Of a DNA stretch of 64,000 nt, positions 4,586-26,747 are shown piece by piece. Every line of letters starts with the position of its first letter. The stretch's first letter is position 1. The stretch is taken from positions 1-64,000 of the forward strand of contig CALXHR010000002.1 in assembly GCA_944388175.1 (NCBI GenBank), given 5' to 3'. The notes under the pieces are model-generated. The model searched no databases, had not been told where the DNA came from, and saw only the letters and a program-made list of their open reading frames with translations. The stretch is from an uncultured Gemmiger sp. (GTDB taxonomy: Bacteria > Bacillota > Clostridia > Oscillospirales > Ruminococcaceae). The translations under genes and the position numbers were made by a program.

Positions 4586-4855
4586 TATAGAAATGCTGGG
4601 AAAAAGAGTGCGCCCGGCAGCCGTTTTTGCAGAGAGCCGGCGGTTGGTGCAAGCCGGCAAAACGGGCGGGGCGCTGTCGCTTTGGAGCAGGCACGGTAAG
4701 GCCGATGGCGTAGCCGTGCCCGGGCCGGCCGCCGTTATCCGCGCCGGGCGGGAGTTTTCCCGCCGCTAAGGGGCCTTGCAAAAGGCAATTTGGGTGGTAC
4801 CGCGACCTGATTTTCAGGCCGTCCCATGGTTCGCATGGGGCGGCCTTTTTCTATA
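4586..4855 (+). promoter_or_regulatory. T-box riboswitch, valine-specific
   Basis: This leader of about 270 nt contains the T-box core TGGGTGGTACCGCG at 4791-4804, whose TGGT can pair with an uncharged tRNA ending in ACCA. In stem I, AAAG and GCGCC on the 5' side pair with GGCGC and CTTT on the 3' side. They enclose a specifier loop with the triplet GTC (4676-4678), a valine codon. A strong terminator closes the leader at 4818-4855. The known mechanism is that uncharged tRNA-Val stabilises an antiterminator and allows valS transcription. Confidence 0.93.
4818..4855 (+). terminator. Regulated terminator of the valS T-box
   Basis: A 12-bp GC-rich stem (GGCCGTCCCATG / CATGGGGCGGCC) is followed by TTTTT. 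It is the off-state structure of the T-box. Confidence 0.88.
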
Positions 4856-23154: not shown

Positions 23155-23853
23155 TCAGCGCTGGATGCGTTTGTCGCACCGCACGGCCATGCGGGTGCCC
23201 ACCGTCTGCAAAATCTGTACCAGCACGACAAGCAGCGCCGTGGCAAAAATCTCCAGCAGGCCGTTGAAGCGGTAGTAGCCGTAGTTGATGGCCACCTTGC
23301 CCAGGCCCCCGCCGCCGATGATGCCCGCCATGGCGCCGTAGCCCATGATGGTGGTGGTGGCGATGGTGATGTTGGAGATCAGGCTGGGCATGCTTTCGGG
23401 GATCATGACTTTGACGATGATCTGCAGCGGCGTGGCACCCATGCTCTGCGCGGCTTCAATGACGCCGGCGTCGACCTCGCGGATGCTGGTTTCGACCAGG
23501 CGGGACACAAACGGGAAGGACGCAATGACCAGCGGCACGATGGAAGCCGGCGTGCCGATGGAGGTGCCGACGATCAGGCGCGACAGCGGGATGACGATGA
23601 TCATCAGGATCAAAAACGGCACGCTGCGCAGCAGGTTGATGAGCACGTTGAGCGCCTGCATGAGCCAGCGCGGCAGCGGGCGCACGCCGCCCGGCTCGCC
23701 CGCGACAAGGCAGACGCCCAGCGGCAGCCCGATGACGAGCGCCAGCAGCGTGGCGGCCGCGGTGGACCAGACGGTCTCCCACATTTCAAAGGGGATGGTG
23801 GGCAGAATCTGCATAAATTCTTCCCACTGTTTGCTTGCCAGCAGTTCGGCCAT
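23155..23853 (-). CDS. metI: Methionine ABC transporter permease
   Basis: This 232-residue inner-membrane protein has five to six hydrophobic helices and the EAA-type loop (EAAQSMGATPLQIIVKVMIPESMPS) that docks the ATPase. The sequence SVPFLILMIIVIPLSRLIVGTSIGT is characteristic of MetI. It is the last gene of metQNI, and its ATG shares one base with the metN stop (TGATG). No clear terminator follows. Confidence 0.96.
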   Translation of the reverse strand: MAELLASKQWEEFMQILPTIPFEMWETVWSTAAATLLALVIGLPLGVCLVAGEPGGVRPLPRWLMQALNVLINLLRSVPFLILMIIVIPLSRLIVGTSIGTPASIVPLVIASFPFVSRLVETSIREVDAGVIEAAQSMGATPLQIIVKVMIPESMPSLISNITIATTTIMGYGAMAGIIGGGGLGKVAINYGYYRFNGLLEIFATALLVVLVQILQTVGTRMAVRCDKRIQR

Positions 23854-24854
23854 CAGACGTTCACCTCCTCACAGGTAATGCCGGGGTAGTTCTGGATATA
23901 GGCCATGGCCCGGGCCGCGGCGTCGCCCTCCGGCAGGGCCAGCAGCATGCTGCCCAGCGTCTGCCCGTTCACGATGCGGGTGTCGGCCGCCAGGATGGAA
24001 ACCAGCGCCCCGCACTCGATGGCCAGGCTGGCCACCAGTGGTTTGTCGGTGGTCTGGGTGCCGTTGAACGCCACCCGCACCAGCCGGTGGCCGGGCAGTG
24101 CCTCGGCTTTGGGCGCACCCGCCGGGTAGACCAGGCGGCGCGCGGCAGCCGAGTTGGGGTGGCTGAAAATAGCCTGGACTTCGCCTTCCTCTACGACGGT
24201 GCCCTCGTCCAGAATGGCGACGCGGTTGCAAATCTGCTCGACGACGCTCATCTGGTGGGTGATGACGACGACGGTAATGCCCAGTTCGCGGTTGATCTTC
24301 TGGATCAGCTGCAAAATGGCCTGCGTCGTGTTGGGGTCCAGCGCGCTGGTGGCTTCGTCGCACAGCAGCACTTTGGGGTCGGTGGCCAGCGCGCGGGCGA
24401 TGGCGATGCGCTGTTTCTGCCCGCCGGAGAGCTGCGCCGGGTAGGCGTCGGCCTTATCCGGCAGGCCGACGAGTTCCAGCAGCTGGCGCGCGCGGGCTTC
24501 GGCCTGGGCCTTGGGCGTTTTGGTCAGTTCCATCGGGAACAGGATGTTGTCCAGGCAGGTGCGCTGCATCAGCAGGTTGAACTGCTGGAAGATCATGGTG
24601 ATCTCGCGCCGGGCGGCGCGCAGCTCGGCCGCGCTGAGCTGCTGCATCGCCCTGCCGTTGACGAGCACGCTGCCCTCGTCGGGGCGTTCCAGCATGTTGA
24701 TGCAGCGTACCAGCGTTGATTTGCCGGCGCCCGACATGCCGATGATGCCGTAGATATCGCCGTCGCGGATGGTAAGGTTGATGTCCTTGAGCGCTACGAC
24801 GGTACCGCCGCTGGTGCTGGCGAAGCGCTTGGTCAGGTGTTGCAGTTCGATCAT
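23853..24854 (-). CDS. metN: Methionine ABC transporter ATP-binding protein
   Basis: This 333-residue ATPase has Walker A (GMSGAGKST), the signature LSGGQKQRIAIARAL, Walker B (VLLCDEATSALD) and the switch His (VVVITHQ). A C-terminal NIL domain (residues 255-333) binds methionine and inhibits transport in known MetN proteins. It lies 111 nt after metQ and is fused to metI by overlap. Confidence 0.96.
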   Translation of the reverse strand: MIELQHLTKRFASTSGGTVVALKDINLTIRDGDIYGIIGMSGAGKSTLVRCINMLERPDEGSVLVNGRAMQQLSAAELRAARREITMIFQQFNLLMQRTCLDNILFPMELTKTPKAQAEARARQLLELVGLPDKADAYPAQLSGGQKQRIAIARALATDPKVLLCDEATSALDPNTTQAILQLIQKINRELGITVVVITHQMSVVEQICNRVAILDEGTVVEEGEVQAIFSHPNSAAARRLVYPAGAPKAEALPGHRLVRVAFNGTQTTDKPLVASLAIECGALVSILAADTRIVNGQTLGSMLLALPEGDAAARAMAYIQNYPGITCEEVNV

Positions 24855-24965: not shown

Positions 24966-25826
24966 TTAGAACAGCGCCACAACCGCGCCGTTGTAGGTCG
25001 CGTCGATGTAATCCTTGACGTCCTGGCTCTGCAAAGCGGCCAGCAGCGCCTGGATGGCGGGGTCGTTCTCGCGGCCTTCCTTGACGACGAGGACGTTGGC
25101 GTAGGTCTGGGCGGCCTCGGAAGCGGCATCCTCGGTGGCGAGGGCATCCTCCCCGGCGGTGAAGCCGGCTTCCAGCGCATAGTTGCCGTTGATGACGGCG
25201 TAGTCCACGTCGGCCAGCGTGCGCGGCAGCTGCGCGGCTTCCAGTTCCTCAATCTCGACGTTGTGCGGGTTGGCGGTGATATCGTTGACGGTGGCGGTCA
25301 GGCCGGCGCCGTCCCGGATCGTGATGATGCCCTGGGCGGCCAGCAGCTGCAGGGCGCGGGCCTCGTTGGTGGTGTCGTTGGGCACGGCAATGACTGCGCC
25401 GTCGGCCAGCGCGTCCAGGCTGCTGCTTTTGCCCGGGTAGATGCCGAACGGCTCGTAGTGGATTTCGCCCACGCTGACCAGGTTGGTGCCGTTTTCCGCA
25501 TTGAAAGAATCGAGGTACTGCTGGTGCTGGAAGTAGTTGGCGTCGACCTCGCCGTTTTCGGTCACCATATTGGGCTGGACATAGTCGCTGAACTCGACGA
25601 TCTCGAGTTCAATGCCCTGTTCGGCCAAAATCTGTTTGGCAATCTCCAGAATTTCGGCATGCGGCGTGGGCGAAGCGGCCACTTTCAGGGTGGTGCCTTC
25701 CAGGCTGCCGGTCTCGCCGGTTGCCGTCCCGTCGGAAGCGGATTCCGGGATGGTCGCGGTCGCGCCGCAGGCGGCCAGGGTGAAGGCCAGCGCGCCGGCC
25801 AGGATCACAGACAAAAATTTTTTCAT
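24966..25826 (-). CDS. metQ: Methionine-binding lipoprotein of the NlpA/MetQ family
   Basis: This 286-residue protein begins with a lipoprotein signal (residues 1-20, lipobox LAAC). A Ser/Thr/Gly-rich linker and the NLPA fold follow (ASPTPHAEILEIAKQIL, GIELEIVEFSDYVQPN, NYFQHQQYLDSFN). It should capture methionine, or a related sulfur amino acid, for MetNI. The start at 25826 has AAAGGAGAA upstream. The long leader contains two short ORFs and a transcription attenuator, described separately. Confidence 0.95.
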   Translation of the reverse strand: MKKFLSVILAGALAFTLAACGATATIPESASDGTATGETGSLEGTTLKVAASPTPHAEILEIAKQILAEQGIELEIVEFSDYVQPNMVTENGEVDANYFQHQQYLDSFNAENGTNLVSVGEIHYEPFGIYPGKSSSLDALADGAVIAVPNDTTNEARALQLLAAQGIITIRDGAGLTATVNDITANPHNVEIEELEAAQLPRTLADVDYAVINGNYALEAGFTAGEDALATEDAASEAAQTYANVLVVKEGRENDPAIQALLAALQSQDVKDYIDATYNGAVVALF

Positions 25827-25904
25827 GGGAAATTCTCCTTTTTCTATGCATGTATCGTAGCAGTACGGTCTTGGTCGCAAACAGGCAGGGCGGATGCCCT
25901 GCGG

Positions 25905-25949
25905 TCACATTCGCACGCCGGGCTGCTTGTATACAGGGCCACGTTCCAT
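25905..25949 (-). CDS. Second short leader ORF of the metQNI transcript
   Basis: This 14-codon ORF (MERGPVYKQPGVRM) lies between the attenuator and metQ and is led by a near-perfect AAGGAGG ten nt upstream. It ends ATG-TGA. The strong RBS makes translation likely. A small hairpin (25885-25902, GCAGGGC/GCCCTGC) without a T run follows. Its role is unknown; it could couple or gate translation towards metQ. Confidence 0.45.
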   Translation of the reverse strand: MERGPVYKQPGVRM

Positions 25950-25982
25950 ATACGTTTTTCCTCCTTCAGCGGGGATGTTGCC

Positions 25983-26021
25983 AAAAAAAGCGGGGCGCCG
26001 AAACAACTTCGGCGCCCCGCT
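25983..26021 (-). terminator. Attenuator terminator in the metQNI leader
   Basis: On the minus strand a 14-bp stem (AGCGGGGCGCCGAA and complement, 5-nt loop) is followed by six to seven T. It lies 160 nt after the promoter and 160 nt before metQ, so it must be read through for expression. An alternative pairing of 26066-26080 with 26007-26024 would break it. Confidence 0.88.
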
Positions 26022-26080
26022 GTGTTCCCGCTTTATGCGCTCAGATCCACGCATGAGAAAGCAAGCACAGGCTGCCGAAG
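26007..26080 (-). promoter_or_regulatory. Antiterminator pairing in the metQNI leader
   Basis: The RNA segment CTTCGGCAGCCTGTG (26080 to 26066) can pair with CACAGCGGGGCGCCGAAG (26024 to 26007). This gives 7 + 3 + 4 base pairs with one 1-nt and one 4-nt bulge. The second segment includes the 5' arm of the terminator, so the two folds exclude each other. The first segment lies inside codons 17-21 of the leader peptide, just past its Met/Cys run. Confidence 0.7.
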
Positions 26081-26128
26081 CAAGCTGCACATGCACATCA
26101 TCATGCCGATGCGATGGGTGCGGACCAT
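26033..26128 (-). CDS. Met/Cys-rich leader peptide of metQNI (attenuation peptide)
   Basis: This 31-codon ORF is led by AGAGAGGAA eight nt before its ATG. Residues 8-15 read GMMMCMCS: four Met and two Cys in six codons (26087-26104). A third Cys lies at residue 26. It ends 12 nt before the attenuator stem. Stalling at Met or Cys codons would leave the antiterminator segment (codons 17-21) free; completing translation would cover it and let the terminator form. This is the logic of classical amino-acid leader peptides and is inferred here from sequence alone. Confidence 0.75.
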   Translation of the reverse strand: MVRTHRIGMMMCMCSLLRQPVLAFSCVDLSA

Positions 26129-26185
26129 GGGGACGTTCCTCTCTTTGCAGGATCTGGCAAGCCGATAACGGCTTTCTTGTTGTAA

Positions 26186-26214
26186 AGTATAGCCCGTGCG
26201 GCGGTGTCTGTCAA
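26186..26214 (-). promoter_or_regulatory. Promoter of the metQNI leader transcript
   Basis: Minus-strand TTGACA, 17 nt, TATACT. Transcription should begin near 26179, about 50 nt before the leader peptide. Confidence 0.9.
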
Positions 26215-26267
26215 CACTTTTTGGCAAAAAAGCCCGTTTTGCCGGATTTTGCGCGCCCGGGCGGGGG

Positions 26268-26296
26268 TTGCCAATTCCCTACAAATATGCTATGGT
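26268..26296 (+). promoter_or_regulatory. Promoter of the rrf2 gene
   Basis: TTGCCA, 17 nt, TATGGT, divergent from the metQNI promoter. Confidence 0.65.
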
Positions 26297-26333
26297 AATG
26301 ACACAATACGACCCGAACCCTAAGGAGACCCGG

Positions 26334-26747
26334 ATGAAATTTTCGACCCGTGACCGCTACGCGCTGCGCCTGATGGTGGACCTGGCCCGCCGCGGCGATG
26401 CGCTGGTGCCGCTGAAAGAGATCAGCGCCGCCCAGCAGATCAGCTTAAAATACCTGGAACAGATCATCCCGCCGCTGGCCCGGGCCGGGCTGGTGGCCAG
26501 CGTGCGCGGCGCGCAGGGTGGCTACCGCCTGACGCGCCCGGCGGCCGAGATCACAGCCGGGGAAATTTTACGCGCTGTGGAGGGCGAGCTGACGGCCGTG
26601 CCCTGCCTGGGGGCCGAAACCGGCTGCCCGCACAGCGGCCACTGCCAGACGCGGGCATTTTGGGGCGGGCTGAATGAACTCATCAACCGCTATGTCGACG
26701 GCGTCACGCTGGCGCAGCTGGCCGGCGAAGCAGGCCCGCTGCCCTGA
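26334..26747 (+). CDS. Rrf2 family transcriptional regulator
   Basis: This 137-residue regulator has a winged helix (MKFSTRDRYALRLMVDLARR, then ISAAQQISLKYLEQIIPPLARAGLV). Three cysteines (C-x6-C-x5-C, in VPCLGAETGCPHSGHC) near residues 92-106 resemble the Fe-S ligands of IscR-type members. Rrf2 regulators control cysteine metabolism (CymR), Fe-S assembly (IscR) or NO response (NsrR). Its divergent position next to metQNI suggests control of sulfur amino acid uptake. AAGGAGA precedes the ATG; the frame is open further upstream but homology begins at 26334. Confidence 0.92.
   Translation: MKFSTRDRYALRLMVDLARRGDALVPLKEISAAQQISLKYLEQIIPPLARAGLVASVRGAQGGYRLTRPAAEITAGEILRAVEGELTAVPCLGAETGCPHSGHCQTRAFWGGLNELINRYVDGVTLAQLAGEAGPLP

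Follow-up and report, generated by a model that had tools for sequence, protein, structure and literature searches.

The methionine uptake operon metQNI of an uncultured Gemmiger sp. is in all likelihood controlled by a ribosome-mediated transcription attenuator of the trp/his type that reads the methionine codons of a short leader ORF, probably together with cysteine codons. As judged from sequence comparison, transcription of the uptake genes very probably depends on how this ORF is translated. Attenuators of the leader-peptide kind exist for several amino acids, and those of the trp, his and leu type are known in Proteobacteria. The leader was recognized in a stretch of 64,000 nucleotides, the window, and by its recurrence in other genomes the Met/Cys leader proves to be general, beyond this single case.

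On the minus strand of the window a promoter, the leader ORF, an intrinsic terminator and the genes metQ, metN and metI follow one another (Table 1). The elements which the original prediction had placed in this region were all recovered: a sigma-A promoter, a 31-codon ORF behind a good ribosome-binding site and containing the Met/Cys run, a 14-bp terminator with a T run starting 12 nt past the ORF stop (stem 26021-25989), and a segment of the ORF tail (26081-26066) that can pair with the terminator 5' arm (26021-26007). The terminator scan counted a closing G-T in addition to the 14 pairs, and 11 unpaired nt separate the ORF stop from the stem, which begins at the 12th. The transcription start, estimated from the -10 box, lies at about 26179. 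Hairpins of the AAGCC..GGCTT kind, like the one at the 5' end of this transcript, were noticed by eye in several relatives and were left uncounted. The MetQ protein of the window is 95% identical to that of 'Candidatus Gemmiger excrementipullorum' (locus L038).

Table 1. Features of the metQNI leader, its operon and the divergent regulator gene in the window.
Feature	Position	Strand	Remark
Sigma-70-type promoter TTGACA-17-TATACT	26186..26214	-	11/12 consensus matches
Promoter boxes TTGACA and TATACT, 17 nt spacer	26214-26209 and 26191-26186	-	
Small hairpin AAGCCGTTATCGGCTT, 5' end of leader transcript	26159..26174	-	by reading
Shine-Dalgarno AGAGG of leader ORF	26138..26142	-	
Leader ORF MVRTHRIGMMMCMCSLLRQPVLAFSCVDLSA, 31 codons and stop	26033..26128	-	
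Control codons ATG-ATG-ATG-TGC-ATG-TGC (codons 9-14)	26087..26104	-	
Antiterminator segment GCTTCGGCAGCCTGTG within ORF tail	26066..26081	-	can pair with 26021-26007
Terminator 5' arm, common to antiterminator and terminator	26007..26021	-	
Terminator 3' arm and T run	25983..26003	-	
Second conserved mini-ORF (uORF2) MERGPVYKQPGVRM and stop, between terminator and metQ	25905..25949	-	
metQ, methionine-binding lipoprotein (NlpA family)	24966..25826	-	PF03180, E 3.2e-90; start codon chosen by the analyst
metN, ABC transporter ATPase with NIL domain	23853..24854	-	profile match
metI, ABC permease	23155..23853	-	profile match
Rrf2-family regulator gene, divergent from leader	26334..26747	+	IscR/CymR-like

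Allowing up to three mismatches, the Met/Cys run occurs once in the window, and since shuffled sequences gave a mean of 0.08 matches (n = 100; eight of them had one match) it exceeds chance. A detector that combines a short ORF, a Shine-Dalgarno sequence, a Met/Cys run and a terminator returned a single match over both strands of the window, namely the leader ORF.

Conservation was assessed in 35 genomes of the genus, 32 of which contain a full metQ (G018, G028 and G029 do not); one contig begins inside metQ (L012/L039), leaving 31 loci with upstream DNA. The leader ORF with its run, ahead of the operon and with promoter and ribosome-binding site, was kept in 31 of these 31 loci, as was the TTGACA-17-TATACT promoter (28 by script; L020, L140 and L141 by eye), and an intrinsic terminator lies between the ORF and the first gene, 10-28 nt past the ORF stop, in all 29 Gemmiger leaders examined. 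No locus among the 31 retained the hairpins while losing the Met/Cys codons, an outcome that had been named beforehand as evidence against the attenuator. The run reads MMMCMC in 23 loci, MMMCMY in six, and MMMRMC and MMCMC in one each. The stretch of the ORF ahead of it is variable, both in length (6-10 codons) and in sequence. The methionine positions of the run are kept in 123 of 124 instances, Cys12 in 30 of 31 and Cys14 in 25 of 31, the cysteine codons being partly replaced by those of tyrosine and arginine. Of the two residues named in the initial proposal of a methionine and/or cysteine sensor, methionine is the more strictly kept. It is probably the main signal, given its nearly invariant positions and an operon for methionine import; cysteine is enriched yet replaceable.

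The proposed control would operate as follows. Poor charging of Met-tRNA (or Cys-tRNA) would stall the ribosome on codons 9-14; the tail segment ahead of it would stay free and pair with the emerging 5' arm of the terminator, which could then not form, and metQNI would be transcribed. With good charging the ribosome would cover the tail segment, the terminator would form and transcription would stop.

The pairing on which this scheme depends was examined in an alignment of 28 of the 31 Gemmiger leaders (without L015, L025 and L141). The eleven pairs by which the antiterminator joins the ORF tail to the terminator 5' arm were formed in 94.6% of cells, compared with 29-63% in slid controls, the two outermost pairs being gapped in about half of the 28 rows. 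Antiterminator cells changed on both sides numbered nine, against a mean of 2.7 after shuffling (0 of 500 shuffles reaching the observed value); all nine fall at the pair 27:108, which shows five pair types. The number of antiterminator pairs with a two-sided change (one, reached in 489 of 500 shuffles) and the number of antiterminator pair types (nine, reached in 25 of 500) are unexceptional. In the terminator 42 two-sided changed cells were distributed over six pairs, against 15.2 after shuffling (0 of 500).

A swap test, in which ORF tails were exchanged among terminators, was weak within Gemmiger alone (386 of 20,000 permutations), and divergent leaders were brought in because the Gemmiger sequences are related and offer too little divergence for it. 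The resulting set comprised 20 leaders, eight from Gemmiger sub-lineages and 12 from elsewhere, some of them close kin (L109 and L117 are alike; L144, L145, L146 and L155 belong to one genus, L144 and L155 to one genome); L057, L077, L084, L090 and most leaders of the survey described below were outside it. The summed energy of the leaders' own duplexes was -429.7 kcal/mol, compared with -317.5 (sd 16.2) after permutation and -327.1 (sd 11.9) with shuffled ORF tails, and none of 100,000 permutations or of 1000 shuffles was as low; on 11 representatives alone the permutation result was likewise 0 of 100,000. Ranked against all 20 tails for pairing with its terminator, the leader's own tail came within the first three in 15 leaders, and first in five. 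Taken singly, ten of the 20 leaders stood at or below 50 of 1000 tail shuffles; five (L019, L033, L108, L116 and L141) had no pairing excess (282-471 of 1000), and the window's own duplex was unexceptional, 72 of 1000 shuffled tails being as good. The coupling of tail and terminator, as computed, is thus a property of the set of leaders, strong in some and weak in others. The support for an antiterminator at or just past the control codons arises from the comparison of many leaders; the mutually exclusive folds foreseen in the original prediction are supported across species, and weakly so by the window alone. The attenuator interpretation itself was supported: promoter, Shine-Dalgarno-led ORF, Met/Cys run, terminator and antiterminator segment are all present, and the last two are coupled over the leader set.

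The effect of ribosome position was explored with a fold model in which the partial transcript extends to the terminator loop, the ribosome masks 13 nt past the start of the A site, and pairing is expressed relative to arm length. For the window leader the antiterminator pairing was 1.05, 1.04 and 0.72 when the first, middle and last control codon, respectively, occupied the A site; it was 0.29 eight codons past the run and 0.03 at the stop. All 20 leaders formed the antiterminator when the first control codon was in the A site (0.84-1.81); eight codons past the run the pairing ranged from 0.00 to 0.61, and at the stop codon the model leaves 0.03-0.71 of it. In L109 and L019 it had already fallen, to 0.05 and 0.44 respectively, once the A site reached the end of the control codons. 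Folding without a ribosome gave 1.03 for the window, at least 0.7 in 14 of the 20 leaders and below 0.3 in six; a constant protector hairpin was thus not seen in those 14, the window included, and is possible in the other six.

According to this model, the antiterminator of the window leader is predicted to form without a ribosome, and the leader may be ON by default, to be switched OFF only when a ribosome reads through. If there is no constant protector hairpin, only the translating ribosome is left to set the OFF state, and the pairing that the model retains at the stop codon speaks against this. With so strong a terminator (-30.3 kcal/mol), antitermination would also need to be a kinetic process. 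Since methionine begins every translation, a ribosome-based sensor of it should face a paradox when starvation is severe. A default-ON leader would suit this amino acid, because methionine shortage should also deplete initiator tRNA; that a constant protector hairpin is apparently lacking points to a testable way out of the paradox.

Sensing by RNA alone was considered next to sensing by the ribosome. At gathering score, an Rfam search of the whole window returned only ribosomal RNA at its edge, and neither a SAM riboswitch nor a T-box; a permissive search of 25800-26400 (E up to 10) gave seven matches, all below gathering score and with E of at least 0.26, one of them to the nadA riboswitch (E 5.7) and none to SAM or T-box families. 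At gathering score, 19 further Gemmiger metQ loci and L118 gave no SAM or T-box match either, in line with the original prediction, in which neither kind of element had been found here. Both kinds exist elsewhere in these genomes: 32 of 35 Gemmiger genomes carry one SAM-I riboswitch each, which in the genome of the window stands before metK, and T-boxes occur in 35 of 35 at E<=0.001 and above the family cut-off in 30 of 35. A T-box-like leader was noted at 4589-4829 (+) of the window itself (90.5 bits, the Rfam cut-off being 93).

Rfam coverage extended to 19 of the 31 Gemmiger loci, to 60 of 68 non-Gemmiger metQ loci of named records and to 40 of the 50 leaderless loci of the survey. The 60 named loci comprise six with a SAM riboswitch, nine with a T-box, eight with a strict leader and 37 with none of these (L084 included), and no locus carries two of the three. 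The 40 leaderless survey loci yielded three T-boxes and no SAM riboswitch. It is extremely unlikely that a metabolite-binding RNA (for SAM, SAH or a new ligand) or a T-box is the sensor and the ORF incidental: such elements do lie in 15 of the 60 non-Gemmiger metQ loci, but in none of the eight strict-leader loci among them nor in any of the Gemmiger loci searched, and the leader ORF is preceded by a 5' UTR of only about 51 nt.

The attenuator reading was followed beyond Gemmiger in several ways. In 80 metQ loci of named records (435 kb) the strict detector gave 19 matches in the sense and none in the antisense orientation, 11 in Gemmiger and eight among the 68 others (L057, L077, L090, L108, L109, L113, L116 and L117). 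L077 is that of [Clostridium] aminophilum DSM 10710, where by eye the leader precedes metN-metI-metQ. In a survey of the order, 65 of 245 genomes had metQ at E<=1e-30, and upstream DNA was obtained from 63 loci, the genome of the window and G489 (contig starting in the gene) being set aside; a strict leader was present in only 13 of these 63 non-Gemmiger loci, all sense and none antisense, three of which repeat known ones (L245 = L153, L246 = L117, L248 = L155). A relaxed detector applied to the 50 leaderless survey loci gave two sense matches and one antisense, which are excluded from the counts.

Codon patterns alone, searched in 394 genomes of the order, led to six leader-like places besides the window, located before metN (L145, L146 and L155), before metQ (L153), before an M20-like gene (so named by eye) with metN downstream of it (L157), and before an M20 hydrolase gene (L144). 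The MetN matches at these loci fall under the equivalog cut-off, and the NIL domains of L146 and L155 lie above their own. At L144:1642-2847 (+) the gene that follows the Met/Cys leader encodes an M20 amidohydrolase, which might, as a guess, remove the acyl group from N-acylated sulfur amino acids. The looser codon patterns were noisy, with 14 places against five for reversed-pattern controls, and 16 (window included) against three; a leader layout was judged by eye to be present in five and one of these places, respectively, besides the window. An exact 18-mer proved too specific to map the spread, matching the five Gemmiger genomes drawn and one of 292 others among 297 genomes of the family, with no control matches. 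In G117, of another genus of the family, an MMMCMC leader precedes metF (PF02219; just under the NCBIfam cut-off), downstream of which lies a homocysteine S-methyltransferase domain.

A scan open to all amino acids (the same residue four times within ten codons, and a terminator) was applied to 148 loci, five of them chosen by codons. Met-rich ORFs were concentrated on the sense strand of the met loci, with 35 sense cases and one antisense, or 30 sense in the 143 loci without the codon-chosen five; L084, absent from the strict-detector matches, is one such Met-rich case. The sense and antisense counts for other residues were 15/12 for Ser, 12/6 for Ala, 11/10 for Arg, 7/3 for Leu, 6/0 for Val and 4/1 for Cys, with at most four sense for all the rest. 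Cysteine was the commonest other residue in the 23 distinct non-Gemmiger Met-rich stretches (23 of 112 non-Met residues). Outside Gemmiger the leaders, whose ORFs and terminators precede metN, metQ or metF, differ in sequence save for the composition of the run, which is kept while its order is not (MMMCMC, MMMPMCMCMMPMCM, MTMMEMCMRMRM, MMMCCCETMCMCNMC).

This pattern is as expected for codon identity, and it bears on two readings that place the function in the peptide. Arrest peptides control other attenuators, and the run could be a nascent arrest peptide that senses a small molecule (methionine, SAM or cysteine) instead of tRNA charging, acting through the same RNA switch; the conservation of tail residues LRQPV or similar across much of Gemmiger would agree with this. 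The reading is nevertheless unlikely, in that the run keeps its composition and not its sequence, and the conservation of the tail is explicable by RNA pairing. Met/Cys-rich peptides can also bind metals, and the ORF might encode a small functional protein that lies ahead of a terminator by coincidence; this is scarcely credible for an ORF whose tail pairs with that terminator, whose neighbours are methionine genes and whose counterparts outside Gemmiger share little more than run composition.

A regulatory protein is also encoded nearby. A complete Rrf2-family gene stands close to the leader in 27 of the 31 Gemmiger loci, and part of one in a further locus. CymR controls sulfur genes in Bacillus, and transcription initiation, through this divergent regulator, might be the controlled step, with the leader minor or constitutive. 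We regard this as very unlikely: the Met/Cys codons, the terminator and their coupling would be left unexplained, the protein of the window reaches neither the IscR nor the CymR equivalog cut-off, and the gene was not seen in the fetched stretch of three of the 31 loci, all of which keep the leader. The Rrf2 regulator is a possible second control layer, and could coexist with the attenuator.

The leader resembles the trp, his and leu attenuators in its short, Shine-Dalgarno-led ORF carrying codons for the amino acid under control, its intrinsic terminator and the competing segment carried by the ORF; it departs from them in its Met/Cys codons, its methionine genes and its occurrence in Clostridia, as well as in the constant protector hairpin, none having been found here, the window leader being predicted ON when no ribosome is present. 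For Bacilli, a histidine leader peptide is reported (PMC2965389). Like the polycysteine leaders that respond to cysteine in mycobacteria and other Actinobacteria, it has cysteine codons in an ORF ahead of sulfur genes. The Actinobacteria ORFs are described as leaderless and poly-Cys in the title of Canestrari 2020, as cited in PMC9094748, and according to PMC1262725 the Cys leaders of that group lack conserved terminator hairpins, and its methionine operons show no conserved RNA structure; the ORF described here is Shine-Dalgarno-led and Met-dominated, with an intrinsic terminator and an antiterminator, which sets it apart from that class. The T-box of S. aureus metICFE, specific for initiator tRNA according to PMC3771891, likewise reads methionine tRNA charging and controls methionine genes by premature termination, but, in that account, the RNA binds uncharged tRNA directly and has no leader ORF. 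The SAM-I riboswitch (RF00162) can occupy the same position, directly before metQ, as in loci of Alicyclobacillus and Aneurinibacillus, but it senses SAM without translation, and the leader matched neither RF00162 nor RF00230 (T-box). A methionine-responsive 5'UTR is reported in Xanthomonas (PMC6230763), the term 'leader peptide' being absent from that account.

Among the matches listed in a search of the open-licence literature, with subscription papers and preprints outside its scope, none was a methionine-codon leader attenuator. As read from the sequences, the mechanism is a known one, and its methionine specificity is new relative to those matches. It would provide a methionine-specific control layer for gut and rumen Clostridia, and a search by codons plus terminator finds members that share no sequence homology.

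The second mini-ORF, between the terminator and metQ, occurs in 27 of 31 Gemmiger loci with QPG(V/I)RM near or at its end. In other Clostridia, short ORFs that end in or contain ...RM or ...GRMC stand ahead of genes for met transporters (loci L108, L116, L145, L146, L155/L248, L249 and L253), and that of L257 has GRT instead; the form ...NFRxGRM(C) recurs in several mini-ORFs other than that of the window. Such a mini-ORF was present in four of the 13 leader-bearing survey loci, and in the 50 leaderless ones six were detected in the sense and none in the antisense orientation, L242 and L250 sharing an NFRxGRMC ending. A sequence pattern for it returned mostly noise, yet yielded four clear cases before O-acetylhomoserine sulfhydrylase genes (metY), the gene being assigned by family search in L266 and by eye in L267-L269. 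A literature search for the letters of the mini-ORF returned nothing relevant. The second mini-ORF is possibly an arrest peptide for a sulfur signal.

A wider picture can be sketched tentatively, as a possibility that we favour less than its opposite. A Met+Cys leader-peptide regulon would extend over several families of Clostridia and replace SAM riboswitches and T-boxes at genes of methionine uptake and synthesis, often ON by default (no protector; methionine shortage would starve initiation too), and the Gemmiger leader would be the first of two tandem sensors, the second mini-ORF (...GVRM) reading another sulfur signal, perhaps as an arrest peptide.

Some minor observations were made at related loci. 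An MMCCRM leader with a terminator was seen in L238, L239 and L240 (genomes G255, G188 and G096), about 75 nt ahead of a first gene that encodes the permease of an amino acid ABC transporter; this suggests that the regulon includes other uptake systems. Ahead of metY an ORF like MPAAIRGFARADMRMRIRMCSCRAVRRLPCACCPF was not seen at L266, L267 or L269; at L268 this Met/Arg/Cys-containing ORF and a terminator lie about 230-120 nt before the end of the mini-ORF. Finally, the MetQ of L153:486-1334 (-) is circularly permuted, its two halves being swapped relative to the MetQ of the window, and split MetQ matches with swapped halves were also noted, for example, in G512:C15, G365:C13 and G411:C27, from several families of Oscillospirales.
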